Of a stretch of 64,000 nt of DNA, positions 2,047 to 37,233 are shown piece by piece. The stretch lies in the NCBI RefSeq assembly GCF_022026395.1, contig NZ_CP041767.1, forward strand, positions 684,001 through 748,000, written 5' to 3'. The translations under genes and the position numbers were made by a program. Each line of letters opens with the position of its first letter. Within the stretch, counting starts at the first letter, position 1. The notes below the pieces were generated by a model. It ran no database searches, had not been told where the DNA came from, and worked only from the letters and a program-made list of their open reading frames with translations. The stretch is from Brevibacillus brevis. GTDB taxonomy: Bacteria > Bacillota > Bacilli > Brevibacillales > Brevibacillaceae.

Positions 2047-3852
2047 TTAATATACTTCTTTTAAAATGGCGATGGTGCAATCGGTAGGGTTGGGGGAGTA
2101 CTTGAAGAAGTTTACAGGGGTATTGATTCGGAAGAACTTGTATACCTCTGTCCAAGTTCCGGCAGCAGGGTCCTTCGGATCTTTTGGTTCCTCTGTATCT
2201 ACGACGAGCTCGTCCTTGTTGATCAGATTATGGTCCTCAATTGCTACGACACTGTCGAGGTAGCCACGATAGCCTTCGAACTGGTGTACCAGATAGATCG
2301 GCGATGCATGATATTTCTTCGTCCATTTCGAGCTTTGGAAGCCGTTTGCTTCGAGTACCATTTTGGACAGCTCAGGAGGGATTGTGCCCACTCCATCGTA
2401 TTTGGGGAGCTGGGTAATAAAGGCAGGGTAGTACGCTTGGAAGTAAACGGAGCTACGGGTTTGCAGCATGGAGAAGGAGTACATGCCGTTGGAGGTATAG
2501 CGTCCCCAGCCCGAATAGTTAGGATTGGTGTCCTGCTTGATGTCGGCTGGAAGGAATCCTGATTTTTCCTTGGTTAAATCACCCATGCCGACTGTGATGC
2601 CAAAATTGCCTTTGTGATCATAGTCAGCAAAAGGAATCGTTTTTCCGATATAAGCAAAGCTGCTGTAGTAAGCATCCATATCAGGCGAAGGGTCGCCTTC
2701 AATTACGATTGCTACACGATCATTACTTACAGAGAGGTTGTATTCCACCCAATAGTCTGGGCGACGCTTCTTGTTTGGTACCCAAGAGACGACAGAGTCG
2801 GCGCCGTAGAAAAAGTGGGAGGAAGGGCTTTTAATTTCGACCTTGTCGTCGTAATCGAGTGCCCATGCTTCGTGAGGTGGGATGTATTTGTCGGTATCAT
2901 CAGGATTGTTCCATTTGTTGTATTGAAGTTCAGCTTGTTTTTGATCGAGGACGAGCGGGACTTTGCCGGGAATAACTGTGCTAGTATCGCAGGCAAGCTG
3001 GTACGTATCGGCAGAGTTTCCAACGGGATTTTTGCCTGTGAAGCCTTTGCCGTAGGACACATCCAGGTAGTTGTACTGCTGGATGGGATGCTTCAACATG
3101 ACGAAGTAGTCGTTAGGCGTTTGGCCTGAAGGTACGTCAGGAACGGATTTTAGGACGACAGTGTGGTCGTAGTGATGGACGGGGTTGGCAATGTATTTGA
3201 CCATTCCGAATTTGTAGAGGGTAGGACGAACATAAGTCCATTCCCAAGAGTAGTAAAATACCGACCATTGACCTTTTGAAAGAAGATCGTTCCAATCAGA
3301 GGGCATTTGTGTAATGAGTTTATACTCATCCCACTCTTTTCCAGGGGTAAATGTTACCCCATCCAACTCATACTTGCCCTGTTGTACCACATAGCATTTC
3401 TTCTTGACAGTGTTGGCAGGGTCGGTATCATCGACATTCACCACCAGTAGACCAGGAACAGGAAGGGTGATGTCGTTTCCTTCAACATTTTTATAGACAA
3501 ACTCTTTCACTTGGATTTTTTTGTTTGATTTAATATTTTCTGTATTGATCGTTTCGAAGATATAGCCATCTGCATCAACGAGAACAGTCCCTCCATTACC
3601 TCGTAACTCCCTCAAATCCGGCAAAACATAAACCGGATAAGTCTTCCCATCCGTATGCTTGTACGTCCCTTGCGTATTCGCAACAGTCGTCTTCTGATAC
3701 GTAACCCACTTATCTTCATTAACCTCAAACACCTTTTCCCAGCGGTTCTTAGTATCCGGGATTTTGGCATTGACGATTTCATCAGCCAGCTTGTTGATGA
3801 GCAAATCGGCTGTGACCTCGCCCTCGATCCAAGCTACTTGTTTACTAGGCAT
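2047..3852 (-). CDS. Phage tail fibre-like structural protein (longer paralogue)
   Basis: The product is 601 aa from ATG behind AGGAGGCG. The N-terminal 250 residues are unlike the paralogue and rich in short beta-type segments. The C-terminal half repeats the fold of the next gene: GDPSPDMDAYYSSFAYIGK matches GDPAVHFEDYRKSFLYVGA, followed by YPAFITQ, KYHASPIYLVH and GYRGYLD. No catalytic motif, signal peptide or membrane helix is seen. It sits 14 bases upstream of the paralogue in the same transcription unit, which suggests a tandem duplication of a fibre or receptor-binding gene with an exchanged N-terminus. This role is inferred; no family was recognised. Confidence 0.7.
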   Translation of the reverse strand: MPSKQVAWIEGEVTADLLINKLADEIVNAKIPDTKNRWEKVFEVNEDKWVTYQKTTVANTQGTYKHTDGKTYPVYVLPDLRELRGNGGTVLVDADGYIFETINTENIKSNKKIQVKEFVYKNVEGNDITLPVPGLLVVNVDDTDPANTVKKKCYVVQQGKYELDGVTFTPGKEWDEYKLITQMPSDWNDLLSKGQWSVFYYSWEWTYVRPTLYKFGMVKYIANPVHHYDHTVVLKSVPDVPSGQTPNDYFVMLKHPIQQYNYLDVSYGKGFTGKNPVGNSADTYQLACDTSTVIPGKVPLVLDQKQAELQYNKWNNPDDTDKYIPPHEAWALDYDDKVEIKSPSSHFFYGADSVVSWVPNKKRRPDYWVEYNLSVSNDRVAIVIEGDPSPDMDAYYSSFAYIGKTIPFADYDHKGNFGITVGMGDLTKEKSGFLPADIKQDTNPNYSGWGRYTSNGMYSFSMLQTRSSVYFQAYYPAFITQLPKYDGVGTIPPELSKMVLEANGFQSSKWTKKYHASPIYLVHQFEGYRGYLDSVVAIEDHNLINKDELVVDTEEPKDPKDPAAGTWTEVYKFFRINTPVNFFKYSPNPTDCTIAILKEVY

Positions 3853-4711: not shown

Positions 4712-7700
4712 TACACAATCGCCCCCTCGTTGTTGCTCCAAAATAAATCGAGGATTTGCATATAGCCGTTCTGCGCATCGAACATCGATCGGATTCCTTT
4801 GATGGTATACGCTTCTCGGGTGGTTGTATTAGAGTCGATAATGTAAATACGATCGAGGACATCCAAGGCAGGGTTGCCAGGGATGGAAATTTGCAGCGTA
4901 CGGCACAAGCGTTTTATATCAAAAAATGTTCGTCGCGCGGCCTGTCGCTTCAATTCGTCTGTCTTGGCAGAGGGAACGTGCCTCACGCCTGTGCGGACCT
5001 CGCCTTTTAACTCCATCAAAATCTCGGTATCTACGAAATGACCAGCCTTATTTTCTTCGTCCAAAATGACAAGATGGCTCCTGCCACGGGAAAAATCGAT
5101 CGTCTTATGAATCGTGATCAAATTATCGTGCTCCGTAAAAGTAGCCACAATCGGCCGATTCATATCAATCTCTTCCAAGCGATACGTGCCATAACGGTCA
5201 CAATAGGAACGGAATTCTGTATCTTTCATGATTTCCGCGATGGCTTCTCCGACTTTGTATTGATACGATTCGAATTTGCGTCCGGGTGGCTCAATAAAAG
5301 GATTTTTCCAACCCTTTGGGGTCAAAATGGATTCGGCATCGACTTCCACAAATTCGCCCTCTTTATCGGGCACAGCCTTGAAAACCTTGCCTGTTGCCTG
5401 CGTCACGTGGGTATAGCTTGTCTCTTGTACAATGGCATAGGGGTAGTAAATGTCTTGCGGATTGCTACGCCAGCCGTACATTCCTGCATGGGCAATCAAG
5501 TCTTGTACAATGGCGGATTTGAGGTAGGCGGCTTTGGCAGTTGGTTCAGTTGGGACAGGTGCGGTACCCTCCCATTCAGGGATCGAATCAAACTCCGTGC
5601 TGGAACGGAACTTTTGATAGATTTGCCACACGCTGTTATACCAATTCGTATCACTCGCCCATTGGTAAGCCCCCTTGTCTCCTCCTTGCCAAAAATATTT
5701 GACGTCGTCGACTGATTGGAAGCGCCAGCCTTTGCTTGCCATGGCCTCCCGATAGCGAACGGCTCCGCGGTAGAGCTGTCGCTCGATCCCTTGGTATTGC
5801 GGATCGCATTTTTCACCGGTATAGCATCCATACCCGAGAATGAAGTCTCCTGGAGGCAGACCTTTCCCCAGCGTCCCCATTTTGGTTTCGTGCTCCGCAA
5901 TGGCTAACAGAAATTTATAATCGAGCTCTGGACCCTGCTGCTTGGCCTGCTTTTTGGCCATCGAGATAATTTTGTCCCGACGAGACATCGAGGAAAAAAC
6001 ATTGGTATCATGTGCGGCAGAATGTCCGATGTCTGGGGGATATTGCTTGTCCTCAGTAATTACCTTGTTCAAAATCTTCTTGTACATATCGCGGCAGTAA
6101 ATGGTCATGGTCGATTCCTCGCCATTTAAATCGAGCTTGTCGATCAGCCCAGTAAACACGCGCATTAAATTCAGGCCATAGCCCATGTAGATCCGAACAG
6201 GAGTATTTTCGGAGAGGACACCGACATGGAATCCATTCACAAAATAAGACCAGGGGGTTTCCTTGTAGGTTTCGGGAAAGTAAAACGGATTATAGTCCGG
6301 GCTGTAGTAGCCGTTCGGGTTTGAAATCGTGATTCGTGCCTCACAGGAATCCATTTCAAACTGGTCGTCCATTTCGATGTGGGTAATATTGTCCAGAGTT
6401 AGGGTGTCAATATAGACGAACTTTCCGACCTGGAGCGATACTTTTCGCGGCTGTCCAGGCATGAAGGTGCTCGTAATTTCCCGTTCCTCAAAAAACTCCT
6501 GCTGCACCGTCGGATCGACTTTGTCTTTGTTCCCGTACAGGTCGGGGCGCCCTTGCAATTCCTTGATCTGAATGTACTGGAGGGAAAAACGATTGACTTG
6601 TTTTCCATTCCAAAACAGCTCGATACGAATTTCCATTTCGCCATTGGGAAAGGGGATATCACGAATCTCTACGTTTTCTGTCCCGGAGAATTTGTTGACC
6701 TTGATTTGCATTTTTCCATTGAAAAAAACGCGCAGCTCGCCGGCACCTTCACCGAAGTTGGTGGAGAACCCCATGCTAAAAATGCCGGGGTGAACAGAGG
6801 TCAGCTTGAGATTCATGCCAGTCGTTACGGTTGGGGAGGGGAAGACGGTCTTGTACCCTTTGGGATCAAAGGTAAAGGTGAGATTGCTATGCTCCGTCGA
6901 GCTTCTCTCGATCATGGATAGCTTTTTGGTTAGCTCGTCTACTTTGTAGACAGATTTTGAGTGCCACGTATTATTGGTAAACCGTTCCTCAAAAAGAGTT
7001 GCTCCTGGCGTTCCAACATAGGTGGCATCGGTTGTGACTCCTGCACCGTTATTGGAAGAGGCAGCAAACAGATACTTCGAACCATTCATATAAGGAAACG
7101 GATCGATAACGGCTTTTCCATTCCAGACCTCAAAGTGCAGATGAGCTCCTCTTCCTTTGGAGCGGGGGGAATTGGGATCGTCATAGGTGCCCATGTCCGT
7201 AACGCCGGCAGAGCGGACGTCTCCTGTATTGCCGCTTTTCCCGATAATAGTGCCTTGCGTGACATAATCCCCTGTTTTGACGTGGATTTCGCTCATATGG
7301 GCGTAACGGGTCCATATGCCATCCGCATGCTGAATTTCTACGCGAAAGCCAAAGCTCGTATATTTTTCAGACACAGTCACTTTTGTTACTTTGCCAGCCC
7401 AGGCAGCTTTGATAGGTGTACCGACTGGACAAGCGATATCAATCCCTTTGTGGTTGCGGTTGTCGCCCATATAGGCTGTAATATCTCGGATGCTTTTGCC
7501 CTCAACAGGAAAGACAAAGGGGATCTTGGAGAGAGCAGTTCCCCCGTCTCCTGAACCATCTTGAATGATGGTGCGGGTCAATGTTTTCTCTTCCCGCGGA
7601 TCACTCATAATGAAATCGAGTTCTTCGGTACGGCCTGGCACGAAGACGAGTCGATCTACCTCGACGCGGCACGAGGGCTTCGATAATTCTCCGAGTTTGA

Positions 7701-7746
7701 GTCTCTCGGAGAGAATTCTACGCAGCTCATTGGACATCGTTTGCAT
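4711..7746 (-). CDS. Tail hub/baseplate protein with M23 peptidase and lysozyme-like domains
   Basis: The product is 1011 aa from ATG behind AGGAGGTG. Residues about 75-225 form an M23 (LytM-type) metallopeptidase: NHKGIDI supplies the H-x-x-x-D zinc ligands and HLHFEVW the second histidine motif. Residues about 600-720 (FLLAIAEHETKMGT, then GAYQWA) look like a lysozyme or glucosaminidase-type muramidase with a candidate catalytic Glu in AEHE. The flanking segments, including the C-terminal 200 residues, resemble phage hub proteins of the gpD/gp44 type. The architecture suggests a tail-tip protein that opens peptidoglycan during penetration by cutting both peptide and glycan. The M23 call is strong, the muramidase call moderate, and the hub assignment inferred. 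Confidence 0.85.
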   Translation of the reverse strand: MQTMSNELRRILSERLKLGELSKPSCRVEVDRLVFVPGRTEELDFIMSDPREEKTLTRTIIQDGSGDGGTALSKIPFVFPVEGKSIRDITAYMGDNRNHKGIDIACPVGTPIKAAWAGKVTKVTVSEKYTSFGFRVEIQHADGIWTRYAHMSEIHVKTGDYVTQGTIIGKSGNTGDVRSAGVTDMGTYDDPNSPRSKGRGAHLHFEVWNGKAVIDPFPYMNGSKYLFAASSNNGAGVTTDATYVGTPGATLFEERFTNNTWHSKSVYKVDELTKKLSMIERSSTEHSNLTFTFDPKGYKTVFPSPTVTTGMNLKLTSVHPGIFSMGFSTNFGEGAGELRVFFNGKMQIKVNKFSGTENVEIRDIPFPNGEMEIRIELFWNGKQVNRFSLQYIQIKELQGRPDLYGNKDKVDPTVQQEFFEEREITSTFMPGQPRKVSLQVGKFVYIDTLTLDNITHIEMDDQFEMDSCEARITISNPNGYYSPDYNPFYFPETYKETPWSYFVNGFHVGVLSENTPVRIYMGYGLNLMRVFTGLIDKLDLNGEESTMTIYCRDMYKKILNKVITEDKQYPPDIGHSAAHDTNVFSSMSRRDKIISMAKKQAKQQGPELDYKFLLAIAEHETKMGTLGKGLPPGDFILGYGCYTGEKCDPQYQGIERQLYRGAVRYREAMASKGWRFQSVDDVKYFWQGGDKGAYQWASDTNWYNSVWQIYQKFRSSTEFDSIPEWEGTAPVPTEPTAKAAYLKSAIVQDLIAHAGMYGWRSNPQDIYYPYAIVQETSYTHVTQATGKVFKAVPDKEGEFVEVDAESILTPKGWKNPFIEPPGRKFESYQYKVGEAIAEIMKDTEFRSYCDRYGTYRLEEIDMNRPIVATFTEHDNLITIHKTIDFSRGRSHLVILDEENKAGHFVDTEILMELKGEVRTGVRHVPSAKTDELKRQAARRTFFDIKRLCRTLQISIPGNPALDVLDRIYIIDSNTTTREAYTIKGIRSMFDAQNGYMQILDLFWSNNEGAIV

Positions 7747-7757
7747 GAAAGCACCTC

Positions 7758-9173
7758 CTATTTAAACCGTTCCAGGGACCATTTTCGAAAGCGATTCAAA
7801 AAAGAGACGGCCTGTGCCCGGGTAAGTAGCGAGTAAGGCATAAACCATTTTTCTTTGTCTTCCGCGTTCGATGACGATACCTCGTACATATGGTTGACGA
7901 CAGCCGCTCCATCGACGAAATTGTTGATCGCAATGCCTTCGATCAAGTAATCTCCGTTGCCAAACCGCTCGTCTTCCATAGAAAGGACGGATGGTGCCCA
8001 CCAAGAAGGCTTGCTGCCAGTCATCCCACCGTTTAGCGCAATTTTTTCCCCGGTGTTGCTGTTGTACATATACTTTTCGCGCCCGACATCTTCAAAGCGG
8101 GTACTCGTCTCTTTGACGTAAAAGAAATGAACGTTTTTACCTGCCTCAAGCGGCATGTTGAACAGTACCGTATGATCATCAAATTCTTGATAATCGGAAC
8201 TGCTCACCACTTTTCCATCCACTTTGATGGCAAGTTGCTTCTTACCTGCAGGATAAGTACCGTTCAGGCGAAAAACACGTTGCCCCTCGTATGCCGTATA
8301 GGATTCATCCAACCGCTGTGTGGGAGGCTGTGAATCCGTAAAGCGTTGGTAAAAAGAACGCCGAAGCCGGTCAATGAGCAGAAAAGCCTCTGCCCGATTG
8401 ATGTAGGCATTGGGAAAGAAGCGGTCGTTTCTCCATACGCCAGGACTTTTCACCGAAAAATATCCGCCTCGCATAAACAGAGCGCCGTTTTCGTAGCTGT
8501 TGTAGATGAAGCGCACCTGTACGCCGTTTAAATTGTAAGGAAGATAAATCGTTGCACCCGGAGCGGGACTGACCATGTAGACATCTTGCTTGAGTCCGAT
8601 ATATTTTTTGGCGAGTTCTTGGGCAGGCGTCGATTTCCATTCCTCTTCTGGCACATCCATTCGCTTCAAGGAGCGACCATATGCGTACAAATACTCGTTG
8701 AATTGACGACTGAACGGATTGTAGAAATACGTGTCTCCGTTATCGAGGCGTTTGTTCGGGTAAGCAAAGGAAGAGGAGTTGGGGGGGATCGGTTTGCCAA
8801 AACGGTCCAAGGCAGGCTTGCCGAAGCTGGAAAAGGCGACAACCGAGTTGGCAGATGGTGCGTAATACAGCTCGACGTCCGTTTTGTTCGGGTCAGTTTG
8901 ATTTGGCCGAATTTCTTTGAAAAGGGTTTGCGTGCCGTCAATATAGACAAAGAGGGGGTTATCTGCACCCGGTGTCAATTTGGCTGCGAGCGTAAAAACT
9001 TTTTGTCCGGTGGAGCCCTTTTGCTCCTCATACAGGTAAGGAGCATTGCTTTCAAAGGAGCCATAAGCAATTCCTTGAATGAACGGTTCTCCGTCAGCCA
9101 TCAAGTAATTGCTGGCCTCCATTACTTCATTAAAAAACCAGTCTTTTTCATTCACATCAGCCCAGCTGATCAT
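7758..9173 (-). CDS. Tail/baseplate protein with SLH-type motifs
   Basis: The product is 471 aa from the ATG at 9173, which has AGGAGG eight bases upstream; the earlier GTG and ATG overlap that site. SLH-like segments are seen at the N-terminus (WADVNEKDWFFNEVMEASN), in the middle (FFPNAYINRAEAFLLIDRLRR) and at the C-terminus (WFMPYSLLTRAQAVSFLNRFR), each with the TRAE/NRAE-type core. Two beta-rich segments lie between them. SLH domains normally bind pyruvylated cell wall polymers. There is no signal peptide, so it is not an ordinary S-layer protein. Its place between the Dit-like protein and the hub/lysin makes it a baseplate part that could grip the target wall. Confidence 0.75.
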   Translation of the reverse strand: MISWADVNEKDWFFNEVMEASNYLMADGEPFIQGIAYGSFESNAPYLYEEQKGSTGQKVFTLAAKLTPGADNPLFVYIDGTQTLFKEIRPNQTDPNKTDVELYYAPSANSVVAFSSFGKPALDRFGKPIPPNSSSFAYPNKRLDNGDTYFYNPFSRQFNEYLYAYGRSLKRMDVPEEEWKSTPAQELAKKYIGLKQDVYMVSPAPGATIYLPYNLNGVQVRFIYNSYENGALFMRGGYFSVKSPGVWRNDRFFPNAYINRAEAFLLIDRLRRSFYQRFTDSQPPTQRLDESYTAYEGQRVFRLNGTYPAGKKQLAIKVDGKVVSSSDYQEFDDHTVLFNMPLEAGKNVHFFYVKETSTRFEDVGREKYMYNSNTGEKIALNGGMTGSKPSWWAPSVLSMEDERFGNGDYLIEGIAINNFVDGAAVVNHMYEVSSSNAEDKEKWFMPYSLLTRAQAVSFLNRFRKWSLERFK

Positions 9174-9190
9174 TTTCATCACCTCCTATA

Positions 9191-9200
9191 TAGAGTAGAC
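9191..9200 (-). promoter_or_regulatory. GTCTA-N2-CTA motif upstream of SLH tail gene
   Basis: The minus strand reads GTCTACTCTA with TTTCT just before it, 18 bases upstream of the chosen start and directly before its ribosome binding site. It is one of five intergenic copies in the tail locus and a candidate promoter element for a locus-encoded sigma factor. Confidence 0.45.
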
Positions 9201-9221
9201 AGAAACCCGGAACAGCCTCAG

Positions 9222-9836
9222 CTATTCCCGAATCATCCGCTCTACCAGCCGCCTTGTCCGATTCAAAAAAGCAATAAACTCGGCACGCGTCACGAAATCA
9301 TTGGGGCGGAAATAAATGACGGGCTTCCCATCTCGGGTAATGACCGTGATTAGCCCGAGATCGGCCATTTCCTCGATGTTTTTTTGCGCCCAATGTCCTT
9401 CAATATCTTGAAATTGAAAACGTGATTCGCGTTCGATGGAGTCTTTTTTGATGAGGATCAGATCGACGGTGGCGCTGTAGCGGCGTCCCGCCTCAAGTAC
9501 ATGGGGGGTGATGGATTCCGCGCTTCCAAGGAAAATACTTCCCTTTTCATCGTAAAACTTGTGGGTCCAGCCTGCGTAGCTCAAGTAATCGTTATACGAT
9601 TCCTTGTCTGGAAAAAGCAAGGTCAATGAACACTGGTAGCTGCTAAAACCGGAGTGGTGGATGTGAGAGGGAGCGTTGATGATTTTGATTTCGCGCAAGG
9701 AAGGCTGGGGACTTGGCGGAGAATACGGCTCGATAAGTCGGGCGTTTACTTCTATGAACTCGAACCCTGTATCGACGAACAGCTTTTTTTTGTAGCGCTG
9801 ATTGGCGGTGCCAAAGGCGTATTGTTGGGTCATCAT
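9222..9836 (-). CDS. Distal-tail-like protein with C-terminal SLH domain
   Basis: The product is 204 aa with GGAGGT upstream of a double ATG. Residues 1-135 look like a phage distal tail or baseplate protein (SSYQCSLTLLFPDKESY, HKFYDEKGSIFLGS). Residues about 140-200 form a convincing SLH domain: FQDIEGHWAQKNIEEMADLGLI, then FRPNDFVTRAEFIAFLNR. The gene follows the tape measure with a 9-base gap, the usual place for a Dit protein. SLH on a tail protein suggests attachment to secondary cell wall polymer of Brevibacillus or its relatives. The SLH domain is clearly visible; the Dit assignment is by position and weak similarity. Confidence 0.75.
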   Translation of the reverse strand: MMTQQYAFGTANQRYKKKLFVDTGFEFIEVNARLIEPYSPPSPQPSLREIKIINAPSHIHHSGFSSYQCSLTLLFPDKESYNDYLSYAGWTHKFYDEKGSIFLGSAESITPHVLEAGRRYSATVDLILIKKDSIERESRFQFQDIEGHWAQKNIEEMADLGLITVITRDGKPVIYFRPNDFVTRAEFIAFLNRTRRLVERMIRE

Positions 9837-33796: not shown

Positions 33797-34084
33797 AAGT
33801 GATCTTGGTTAAATTTTCTTATTACATCCTAGTACTACGAATCCCAAAATGAAAGTGTCCCAAAATAAGGGGTATTTTCCAAAAAAGAATAGAGAATTCT
33901 TTCCTGAAAGAAGGAATTTTAGGATTTTTAATAGAAAATGGAAGGAAAATACTATTGCTTACGAAATAAATAGTCGAATATTACCAAAATATATAATTTT
34001 TTGCTAATATTTGTAGATTTCTGTAAATTCATGAAATATAATGAAGTTGTCTTAATTTTCAATCATAGAGAGGAGGAACTATCC
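33797..34084 (+). promoter_or_regulatory. AT-rich divergent region with candidate promoter for peptide cassette
   Basis: A very AT-rich stretch, unlike its surroundings. TTGCTA (34001-34006), a 17-base spacer and TAAATT (34024-34029) make a vegetative-type promoter; TATAAT at 34037-34042 is an alternative -10. AGGAGG at 34071-34076 serves the precursor gene. No other gene was found in the gap. Confidence 0.45.
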
Positions 34085-34141
34085 ATGAAAATCCAAGCGA
34101 AAAAAGTTGAAAGCGTTCGCACTACTGCAGTAGCAGCTTAA
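34085..34141 (+). CDS. Putative RiPP precursor peptide, 18 aa
   Basis: The peptide is MKIQAKKVESVRTTAVAA. The ATG stands eight bases after a perfect AGGAGG, followed by a stop and then a terminator hairpin, and the next genes are an E1-like adenylating enzyme and an M50 protease, both with RRE-like domains. The N-terminal half is charged and could act as a leader; the C-terminal TTAVAA is small and neutral, a likely modified core. There is no Cys and no C-terminal Asn, so it is neither a lanthipeptide nor a microcin C7 type. An upstream in-frame ATG at 34031 would add 18 residues but has no ribosome binding site. Confidence 0.6.
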   Translation: MKIQAKKVESVRTTAVAA

Positions 34142-34157
34142 TTCTCTTAAGAAGAGG

Positions 34158-34187
34158 GGGAATAGCACACGAGCTATTCCCTTTTTT
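34158..34187 (+). terminator. Terminator/attenuator between precursor and modification genes
   Basis: GGGAATAGC and GCTATTCCC form a nine-pair stem with a six-base loop, followed by six T residues. It lies 16 bases after the precursor stop and 50 bases before the E1-like gene. It would give abundant precursor transcript and less readthrough into the enzyme genes, a common RiPP layout. Confidence 0.8.
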
Positions 34188-34237
34188 CATCTAAAATGAG
34201 CCGGGTTAGCGAACCCCACTATTATGAGGTGTTTTGT

Positions 34238-35392
34238 ATGGAACGTCGTCCTTTATTTAAACCAGTGCATCCCGTTTATGAAGTAACAGAGCAGATGATC
34301 CGCTTGGGAGAGGCTCCTGGCTATACATTCGAATTGGAAGACGAGAATGGGTCCATCCGCAAGATGATCAAACTGATGGATGGCACTCGTACTATCGGTG
34401 AAATACATACATTATTGGTTGTGGATTACCCCGAAATTACGTATGAAGAAATAGTGGAAGCAGTGGAATCACTGAGTGGTTTGGGTTTCATAATGGATCA
34501 GGCGAAGGAAGAGGCTTCTGTTTTGACTTCGGAACAAAAGGAAAGATATAAAGCGAATATCCGTTATTTCTCCTTGTTTACCGATCTCAATCAAAGTCCA
34601 AGTGAGCTACAGGAACAGGTAAGTAGAAAAAAAGTGACGATCTTAGGGATGGGTGCCTTTGGCTCTACGCTACTGGTCAATCTGGTAGGCGCGGGAATCC
34701 AGCATATCAAGCTCGTGGATTTTGATAGAGTAGAGCTTAGCAATTTGAACAGGCAGATGGTCTTTAACGAAAATGATCTTGGTCGCTTGAAGGTAGAAGC
34801 GGCACGTGATTTCATCGGAAGGCTTCATTCTGAGGTAACGATTGAAACGGAGACGATGCAAATCACGTCCAGCGAAGACGTAGAGCGGGTTATTGCCTGT
34901 AGTGACCTCGTGATGCTCGCAGCCGATCAGCCCTTTTTCTTTTTGCAGAGATGGGTGAATCATGCCTGCACCAAGCTGCAAATCCCGTTTATTGCCGGGG
35001 GATTCAACCTCATCGAAGGTCAGTTCTTCATGGTAGAACCGGGCAAGACAGGCTGTATCGACTGCATGCATTTGCATCGTTCTGCGCAGATCGAGGACTA
35101 TCCGCAGTTGATTCAAAGGCTGCTCGATACCAACTTTATTTTGCCTACCGCTACCATTGCACCCAACACCATGATGATTACAGGAATGATGGCTTCCGAT
35201 GCAATCAGGTATTTGACAGGAATCGCTCCGGTACAATCAGCGGGCAAATTTATCATTTTCGACTTCAACACGTTGGAGAAGAGCGTGTTTTTTGAGTGGG
35301 AGCGAAATGAAGCCGATTGTCCGACTTGTGGAAGCGGCAGCGGAATGGAGCCGATTTTTCACATCAAGAGAAATGAAGTGCTCGCAAAGTAA
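34238..35392 (+). CDS. E1-like (ThiF/MccB family) adenylating enzyme with N-terminal RRE-like domain
   Basis: The product is 384 aa from ATG 34238, behind GAGGTG. Residues about 5-90 resemble a PqqD-type RiPP recognition element (winged helix: KLMDGTRTIGEIHTLLVVDYPEITYEEIVEAV). From about 130 the ThiF domain follows: nucleotide loop GMGAFGS (136-142), acidic VDFDRVELSNLNRQ with catalytic Arg, and paired zinc cysteines CIDC (about 271) and CPTC (about 360). Such enzymes adenylate a peptide or carrier C-terminus with ATP. The likely substrate is the 18-aa peptide upstream. No YcaO partner is present, so this is not a standard azoline cyclodehydratase. Confidence 0.85.
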   Translation: MERRPLFKPVHPVYEVTEQMIRLGEAPGYTFELEDENGSIRKMIKLMDGTRTIGEIHTLLVVDYPEITYEEIVEAVESLSGLGFIMDQAKEEASVLTSEQKERYKANIRYFSLFTDLNQSPSELQEQVSRKKVTILGMGAFGSTLLVNLVGAGIQHIKLVDFDRVELSNLNRQMVFNENDLGRLKVEAARDFIGRLHSEVTIETETMQITSSEDVERVIACSDLVMLAADQPFFFLQRWVNHACTKLQIPFIAGGFNLIEGQFFMVEPGKTGCIDCMHLHRSAQIEDYPQLIQRLLDTNFILPTATIAPNTMMITGMMASDAIRYLTGIAPVQSAGKFIIFDFNTLEKSVFFEWERNEADCPTCGSGSGMEPIFHIKRNEVLAK

Positions 35393-35428
35393 GGAATCGT
35401 TCCTGTAAGAGAGGAAGGTGTCTGTCAA

Positions 35429-36667
35429 TTGAATATCTCCGGAGATAGCATTCTCAAGATGCACCCGCTTGCGCGTCGGGCGGAAAACGAGGAAGAGATC
35501 CTCATTGGACGAACGGATATCAGCAATTTTATTGTGCTTCCGGCCATTGGTGTCGAGATTATCGATATGCTGGATGAAGGGAAGAGCATCAATGAAGTCG
35601 CGACGATCATGGAAGAACAGTTGGGCGAACCGGTGGATGTGCTTGACTTTGCGCAGGATTTAATCGCTTCCTATCAATTTGTCTACATGGCAGATGGAGA
35701 GGTTGTCAACGAGCCAGTACCGGTAGTGGATCATTTCTCCTGGATCAAGCAAGGGACGGGTCAGTTTTTCTTTAATCGTGTTGCCTTTGGATTATACGGT
35801 ATCTTATTTTTCACGGGTCTTTTCATTTGTTTGTTTACGGGCAAGTATATCCCCGTCTATTCCGATATTTTTGTTTCTTCTTCCGTGACGGTTTCGGTAG
35901 TGGTTTCTTTCGTGGCCACATGGGTTTTTCTGTTTTTCCATGAGATGGCCCACTTGATGGCGGCCCGATCATTGGGGATCGGCAGTCGTATCGGTCTGGG
36001 GCATCGACTTGTTTTTGCTGTAGCAGAGACGAATATGTCCAATATTGTTCTCGTTGAGCCACAGCGCAGATACAGGGCGTTTTTGGCGGGGATGTCCTGG
36101 GATGCGATGTTTATGGGTATCGGTGTGATTTTGTTGTTTGCCAATGATCAAGGCTGGCTGACGCTTGTGCCCTTCATGGAAGCATTCATTCGCATGCTGA
36201 ATGTCATTCTTCTCATGGCTTTGGCCTTTCAGTTTATGGTTTTCATGCAGACCGACTTGTACTACGTGTTGGCAACCAAGTTCCAATGCTCCAATTTGAT
36301 GGTGAATACACGTATGTTTTTGAAAGGGAAATTCCGTTCCTTGACGCAGGATGAGCAGGAGGAATGGGAGTACGTAGCTGACCATGAGAAAAGGGTCATC
36401 CGTTGGTATAGCTGGGTCTACTTGATTGGATCGGTGTGGGGCATCTGGTTTTTTGTCCAGTATCAGCTGCGCATGGCGGTTGATTTCATTTGGATCATCG
36501 CCGACGACATGAAAAACGCTCCGCTTCACTCGTGGGAGTTTTGGGACGGCATCCTGTTGATCCTGTTGGTTCTGGTTCCGTTTCTCATTTTGGTCTGGTC
36601 ATGGATGAGAGCGTACCGACAACGGAGAAGCGAAAGAGAGCGGACAAAATCCTTGCAGGGCGCATAA
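35429..36667 (+). CDS. M50-family membrane zinc metalloprotease with N-terminal PqqD/RRE-like domain
   Basis: The product is 412 aa from TTG 35429, eight bases after GAGGAAGGTG. The first 95 residues look like a PqqD-type domain (MHPLARRAENEEEILIGR..., IGVEIIDMLDEGKSINEV). Next come membrane helices, the zinc motif HEMAH at about 170-174, more helices, a later motif QTDLYYVLATKFQC that may give the third ligand, and two C-terminal helices. It could cleave the modified peptide in or at the membrane and release the mature product, as YydH is thought to do for the epipeptide YydF. It starts 36 bases after the E1-like gene. Confidence 0.8.
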   Translation: MNISGDSILKMHPLARRAENEEEILIGRTDISNFIVLPAIGVEIIDMLDEGKSINEVATIMEEQLGEPVDVLDFAQDLIASYQFVYMADGEVVNEPVPVVDHFSWIKQGTGQFFFNRVAFGLYGILFFTGLFICLFTGKYIPVYSDIFVSSSVTVSVVVSFVATWVFLFFHEMAHLMAARSLGIGSRIGLGHRLVFAVAETNMSNIVLVEPQRRYRAFLAGMSWDAMFMGIGVILLFANDQGWLTLVPFMEAFIRMLNVILLMALAFQFMVFMQTDLYYVLATKFQCSNLMVNTRMFLKGKFRSLTQDEQEEWEYVADHEKRVIRWYSWVYLIGSVWGIWFFVQYQLRMAVDFIWIIADDMKNAPLHSWEFWDGILLILLVLVPFLILVWSWMRAYRQRRSERERTKSLQGA

Positions 36668-36747
36668 CTAATTTGTGTCTTCACCTTGCCAAGCTGCCCT
36701 GTTACGCTAAGGGGGAAGAGAGATACCCAGGCAAAGGAAGTGCTCAC

Positions 36748-37233
36748 ATGAACCCGATGATCCAAACTATCATTCATCTGCGAAAGGAAGGGCATCTGGA
36801 CGAAGCGATCCAGCTTGTCCTTCAGCTCGTTAGTCAATCCCCGACTGATCCTGTCGCTCATTATCAGTGTGCGTGGTGCCACGATGCAGCCGGATTGGAG
36901 AAGGAAGCCGTTCCCTTTTACGAAAAAGCGATTGAGCTCGGACTGTCTGTCGAAGACGACCTGCAAGGGGCATTACTGGGTCTGGGCAGTACGTATCGCA
37001 CACTGGGACAATACGAGCAGGCAGCAGCTACGCTTGAAAAGGGGATGCAACAGTTCCCCTGCGACCGTTCCTTTCCGATTTTTCTTTCCATGGCGTATTA
37101 CAATCTCGGGAAGCATCACGAAGCCATAAATCTCCTCCTGAAAAACCTCGCAGAAACCTCAAGCGATCCTACGATTTTGGCCTATCAAAAAGCGATTCTG
37201 TTCTATGCAGATGATCTGAATAAGACGTGGTAG
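36748..37233 (+). CDS. Tetratricopeptide-repeat protein
   Basis: The product is 161 aa from ATG 36748, with AAGGAAGTG upstream; an earlier in-frame start would lie inside the M50 gene. About four TPR helical pairs are visible (LDEAIQLVLQLVSQSPTDPVAHYQCAW, EKEAVPFYEKAIELG, LGQYEQAAATLEKGMQQFPCD, LGKHHEAINLLLKNL). It is a protein-protein interaction scaffold with no signal peptide. It follows the M50 gene by 80 bases on the same strand and may belong to the peptide cassette, or just lie beside it. In B. subtilis the yer region has no such gene. Confidence 0.75.
   Translation: MNPMIQTIIHLRKEGHLDEAIQLVLQLVSQSPTDPVAHYQCAWCHDAAGLEKEAVPFYEKAIELGLSVEDDLQGALLGLGSTYRTLGQYEQAAATLEKGMQQFPCDRSFPIFLSMAYYNLGKHHEAINLLLKNLAETSSDPTILAYQKAILFYADDLNKTW

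Follow-up and report, generated by a model that had tools for sequence, protein, structure and literature searches.

In a 64,000-nucleotide stretch of the Brevibacillus brevis genome (contig NZ_CP041767.1, positions 684,001 to 748,000; hereafter the window), a compact gene cluster probably encodes a minimal pathway for a ribosomally synthesized and post-translationally modified peptide (RiPP) of the RRE-ThiF type, RRE standing for RiPP recognition element; we put the probability of this reading at about 0.77. The cluster consists of an 18-codon precursor gene, a gene for an E1-like adenylating enzyme of the ThiF family (E1) and a gene for an M50-type membrane metalloprotease (M50). At the sequence level, the reading is supported by a short precursor of leader/tail design that is co-inherited with a complete E1 and the M50 membrane protease, and by an RRE-like N-terminus for which the evidence is strong on E1 and weaker on M50.

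The precursor gene (34085-34141, plus strand; stop codon TAA at 34139-34141) encodes the peptide MKIQAKKVESVRTTAVAA, in which a putative leader of residues 1-14, ending in Thr14, is followed by the tail AVAA. A Shine-Dalgarno sequence, AGGAGG (34071-34076, plus strand), lies 8 nt upstream of the ATG at 34085, and most relatives' precursors are also preceded by AGGAGG-like sites. The 18-codon gene with its perfect AGGAGG had been reported in a first-pass annotation made from the window's letters, and the sequence confirms it, with conservation across the family arguing that it is more than a chance frame. The peptide was identical in all 10 Brevibacillus genomes in which the enzyme was found. 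In the most diverged member of the genus (G018, enzyme 77% identical), codons 1-14 carry four synonymous and no amino-acid changes. Beyond the genus, relatives retain residues 1-14 (MKIQAKKVExVxxT) and vary in the tail, which is 4-9 residues long. The pattern resembles a leader followed by a core and indicates protein-level selection on the precursor. Our precursor list holds 23 peptides, 15 of a close type and 8 distant; Thr14 is present in 15/15 of the close type. An NCBIfam scan of eight relatives' precursors returned no family, the 18-residue window peptide being below scannable length.

Candidate precursors lie directly upstream of 13 of 19 E1s, those of L042 and L043 with divergent peptides among them, and for three further E1s candidates are located in trans. 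The suggested search for short peptides upstream of enzyme homologues thus recovered a conserved leader family, although the expected TTAVAA-like tail is not constant. One genome, G027, carries eight precursors upstream of one E1 and one upstream of a second, with tails that differ between copies. In G028-G030, E1 and M50 have no adjacent precursor and precursor arrays (MKIQAKKMEKVAPTLANTCV and relatives) lie elsewhere; in G029 the precursors map at about 3.80 Mb and 2.72 Mb and E1 at 2.54 Mb. The enzyme was found in 16 of 39 genomes of the order. Of 38 order genomes searched with a degenerate leader pattern (enzyme-negative G033 is outside this set), 16 gave a match, and they are exactly the enzyme-bearing ones; the pattern read backwards, as a control, matched 2 of 38. 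Single extra pattern matches in G007, G028 and G030 look like chance. We reject a chance open reading frame (ORF), given the identity in 10/10 genomes and a leader pattern matched in 16/16 genomes with the enzyme and 0/22 without it.

The E1 gene (34238-35392, plus strand) encodes 384 residues that match Pfam ThiF with E=2.3e-53. Its best solved-structure match is PaaA (5ff5), covering query residues 4-351 and including the RRE (E=1e-30), and it also matches MccB (E=4e-28). A profile of 16 E1 N-termini matched the PaaA N-terminus at 2.7e-12, and Pfam PqqD matched 6 of these 16 (best 1e-4). The N-terminal, PqqD-like RRE that the first-pass annotation had assigned to this enzyme is therefore well founded on the PaaA match and the N-terminal profile. 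Residues G137, G139, D161, D163, N169, R172, Q173, K185 and D230 and four cysteines are invariant in 19/19 aligned E1s; judged by these positions, the enzyme is complete, with all expected nucleotide-site and zinc residues. The residue spacing equals that of EnfB R167/K180/D225 (PMC12250964) and of IndF Q167/K179 (PMC12150305). Among the matches listed (25 of 33 for E1, 2 for M50), no NCBIfam model scored above its cut-off.

The M50 gene (35429-36667, plus strand, TTG start) encodes 412 residues with five hydrophobic stretches. The ORF matched Pfam M50 at E=0.043 and PqqD at E=0.026, both below gathering thresholds, and the motif HEMAH at 171-175 (H171, E172, H175) and the distal D276 are invariant in 19/19 aligned M50s, four of which come from loci without E1. 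M50 lies in the cluster for 9/9 E1s of the window's tree clade. Of 15 M50 N-termini, three of them from M50s without E1, 10 matched Pfam PqqD (best 2.4e-5, window 0.002), and hhalign gave a probability of 86% for the M50 against the E1 N-terminus. An RRE on the M50 N-terminus is thus probable from sequence comparison. The annotated M50 protease stands on its HExxH motif and conserved Asp, and its PqqD-like part is weaker than that of E1.

In the mechanism we propose, by analogy with RRE-ThiF RiPPs, in which E1 binds a leader and adenylates a peptide carboxylate that a nucleophile then captures (PMC12150305, PMC12250964), the RRE of E1 would bind the leader MKIQAKKVExVxxT and the enzyme would adenylate the free C-terminal carboxylate of the tail. 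A nucleophile would capture the activated C-terminus, giving a cyclic or capped end. M50, through its own RRE-like domain, would then cut near Thr14 and free a product of 4-9 residues at or across the membrane; its RRE, if present, would bring the protease to the leader bound by E1. M50 proteases are known to mature RiPPs (TglG, TmoG and EpeP, acting on pearlins and epipeptides), and EpeP is thought both to cut and to export (PMC10885120). The product in the window species would derive from (TT)AVAA. Since neither AVAA nor the G027 tail AAAGIAAV has a side-chain nucleophile, the capturing group would be a leader residue (Thr13, Thr14 or another), a backbone amide or an external amine. For the same reason, the hydroxyl of Thr14 or Thr13, giving a macrolactone, is the leading single candidate, and the invariance of Thr14 in close-type precursors suggests the same.

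Several observations weigh against our reading of the cluster. On its own, the window E1 N-terminus scores just 0.075 against Pfam PqqD, the window M50 N-terminus is only weakly PqqD-like (E=0.002-0.026), and the match of the M50 N-terminus to the lasso RRE TbiB1 is weak (E=0.055). Among 17 further M50 loci, 12 have no E1 match. No precursor was seen for three of the 19 E1s: L044 and L128, within 1.5 kb, and L134, in the 101 nt available upstream. The leader pattern was designed after the precursors beside most E1s were known, so only two observations count as independent evidence: the 22 enzyme-negative genomes lack the pattern, and G028-G030 contain it; the figure 1/C(38,16)=4.5e-11 overstates the co-occurrence and is inflated by genome relatedness too. 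Inspection of ORF lists, by eye rather than systematically, brought out no exporter, receptor or immunity gene as a conserved neighbour. Thr14 is found in just 5 of 8 distant precursors, and Thr-Thr is likewise found just before the core of IndA (EDTTNWYFI, with a Trp nucleophile; PMC12150305) and in a WWIII-type Niallia precursor. Because the pair also precedes Trp-type cores, Thr14 or Thr-Thr may be a recognition or cleavage site, and we do not accept Thr14, missing in 3/8 distant precursors, as a proven nucleophile.

These points bear directly on what the product would be. It is conceivable, though we consider it rather unlikely, that the cluster represents a novel class of RiPPs whose products are very small macrolactones, with E1 joining the C-terminus to the Thr14 hydroxyl to give rings of 5-10 residues and an RRE-guided M50 cutting and releasing them. 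If so, the window ring would have five residues, as in staphylococcal autoinducing peptides, two enzymes would do the work of modifying enzyme, leader protease and exporter, and unlinked arrays would feed one enzyme pair in some genomes. A macrocyclic imide or a C-terminal amide, formed when a backbone amide nitrogen or an external amine attacks the adenylated C-terminus, is a possible variant to which we give less than even weight: it suits AVAA and AAAGIAAV, has a precedent in EnfB (PMC12250964) and agrees with a Thr-Thr that is common to Trp-type systems, but by itself leaves the strict retention of Thr14 in close-type precursors unexplained. An improbable alternative casts the peptide as a reusable, pearlin-like carrier on whose C-terminus a small group is built, with M50 freeing the end piece only; TglG and TmoG do release a modified C-terminal residue (PMC10885120) and no variation of the peptide is seen in the genus, yet the G027 copies differ in their tails, unlike a constant scaffold.

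Two further explanations appear highly improbable. Membership of the ThiF/MoeB superfamily would allow E1 to form a C-terminal thiocarboxylate, as ThiF and MoeB do on ThiS and MoaD. Against this, a C-terminal Gly is found in 0/15 close-type peptides, and the cysteine in the PTCDTAG segment of a MoeB-like protein of the window genome, which we take to be the acyl-persulfide cysteine, has no counterpart in the eight RRE-E1 rows compared. The short ORF followed by a hairpin upstream of the E1-M50 operon could likewise be an attenuation leader, a regulatory upstream ORF rather than an enzyme substrate, but conservation is seen at amino acids and not at codons, several copies have different tails, copies lie far from the operon in G028-G030, and the enzyme bears an RRE. 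That the TPR protein and the divergent sigma/anti-sigma pair near the cluster are working parts of a larger system is very unlikely as well. In four close relatives (L092-L095) the TPR gene is in place in 4/4 and the pair in 3/4, but a TPR match was absent from all 14 loci compared (13 relatives and one MoeB locus of the window genome) and from the 17 further M50 loci. ECF-like matches, at only 26-34% identity, were confined to L042, L133 and L138, and the ECF and anti-sigma genes are not beside the cluster in L095 (G013), L032 (G018) and L033, though the promoter block is kept there. We therefore reject both as pathway parts and regard them as local neighbours; neither the TPR membership nor the ECF/anti-sigma control proposed earlier survives this comparison.

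An RRE-ThiF RiPP pathway thus stays our preferred reading, and comparison with known systems places the cluster most likely as a so far uncharacterised RRE-ThiF relative rather than a new category. The earlier statement that it fits no main RiPP class does not hold, as the RRE-E1, the adenylation residues and the short leader-bearing precursor are all RRE-ThiF features. Enterofaecin/WWIII (EnfA/EnfB) shares a precursor of about 20 residues and an RRE-E1 with the same Arg/Lys/Asp spacing; the window tail lacks WWxxI, and M50 stands beside E1 where EnfB clusters have transporter genes (PMC12250964). The indolylamide system of S. pneumoniae (IndA/IndF/IndP) likewise combines a minimal precursor, an RRE-ThiF enzyme and a protease, with Thr-Thr just upstream of the tail, but uses a Trp nucleophile, an M16 protease and a transporter (PMC12150305); by inspection, Trp occurs in 0/23 listed precursors. 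Pantocin A (PaaP/PaaA) is linked by the structural match described above and differs in its Glu-Glu-Asn core, found by inspection in 0/23 precursors, and in its oxygenase PaaB in place of the downstream M50. Microcin C (MccA/MccB) has a related E1 domain, but its peptide has 7 residues against 18 and a C-terminal Asn, which is found in 0/15 close-type precursors. The window peptide ends in Ala and has no Cys, as annotated. The GRC thiolactone system (GrcA/GrcB) pairs an RRE-ThiF enzyme with a C-terminal macrocycle, a precursor Cys and two radical SAM enzymes (PMC12250964); some relatives' tails do contain Cys, two relatives' precursors in L041 ending in it. EpeP and TglG/TmoG are RiPP-maturing membrane M50 proteases that act with modifying enzymes other than E1 (PMC10885120). 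Among the five window proteins scanned with Pfam, none was a radical SAM enzyme or a PEARL (LanB-like amino-acid ligase); no wider or dedicated search was made. A survey has reported 27,400 RRE-ThiF candidates (PMC12150305). No publication was recognisable by its title or the start of its abstract as describing the cluster; the survey's supplement was not covered, and an earlier listing among its candidates is possible. Five leader/tail strings gave no literature match. A phage collection gave no match, and two viral contigs matched, of which L143 was examined and has other neighbours.

A probable sigma-A-type promoter precedes the precursor gene (34014-34042, plus strand; -35-like TAGATT, 17 nt, TATAAT). 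The gap between precursor and E1 contains a hairpin with a T-run (34151-34188, plus strand), with an inverted repeat, GGGAATAGC-ACACGA-GCTATTCCC, and a trailing TTTTTT occupying 34158-34187. The computed folding energy of this stretch is -23.8 kcal/mol (z -5.3; 0/200 shuffles equally stable), and the repeat is kept in 11 of 12 aligned loci, by eye, with L038 as the exception and a G-U pair in L014. In the computed fold the T-run is base-paired to the 5' side, and the consensus scan lists the repeat as terminator-like on the minus strand only and not on the plus strand. The annotated hairpin is thus real, and because of these two points its terminator role is best worded as a probable partial terminator, one that would probably keep precursor mRNA above enzyme mRNA. 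Downstream of M50 lies the TPR ORF (36748-37233), and the ECF/anti-sigma pair diverges from the cluster within the window.

Related loci show further arrangements. About 23 kb past the window end, the window genome has another, distant member of this M50 family, with a 731-residue TPR protein after it (L126, 8107-11568). In L135, L136, L139 and L140, an M50 precedes a similar-looking ORF of about 730-756 residues and no E1, the L126 protein alone having been domain-scanned. In seven loci of other Bacilli (L127, L129, L130, L131, L133, L141 and L142), a related M50 gene lies 3' of one encoding a roughly 400-residue membrane protein, with no E1 match nearby; the membrane protein scanned, in L127, is MASE12-HD, and this pairing puts the M50 family to another use. 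A Niallia taxi megaplasmid locus (L145, 1007-8016), whose E1 falls outside the window's clade, has the WWIII-type precursor MKKVTVRRATKVEATTWWIII, a ThiF enzyme, transporter-like ORFs and, by eye, an adjoining divergent two-component-like pair of response regulator and membrane sensor-like protein; the PLSDB table gives no features for this region. Quorum sensing has been suggested for enterofaecin/WWIII-type clusters (PMC12250964). A Sporosarcina plasmid (L147, 1493-6107) encodes a ThiF enzyme, an M3 metallopeptidase, an ABC transporter and the candidate precursor MKIRKLSNKQVSKTAVEPR at 3367. G034 has a decayed copy (L037, about 6970-9342) with precursor MKIKAKKVESVRTTVFTSNV, an E1 interrupted by a stop and an M50 in fragments, adjoining an apparent oligopeptide permease operon. 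A third E1 clade (support 100/99; L042, L043, L146) has differing short upstream peptides (MKLKIRKADRKEVAYATDLGDVG, MMIKVEKGASLAGVVVALPG and MSLKMETIKNKAALLGGVPG) and, as far as seen, lacks a nearby M50; Macrococcus has an MFS transporter in its place.

The peptide does not vary within Brevibacillus but does so outside it, and a role as a peptide signal or competition factor seems most plausible. The cluster would extend the RRE-ThiF RiPPs by a compact member, whose two clades in Bacilli have tree support. Its protease may recognise the leader that the modifying enzyme also reads. G028-G030 offer natural cases in which one enzyme pair apparently serves unlinked precursor arrays. With two enzymes and an 18-residue substrate, the system would be very tractable for studying E1-type peptide activation, and how the activated carboxylate would be captured is a pointed chemical question, given an AVAA tail that lacks a side-chain nucleophile.

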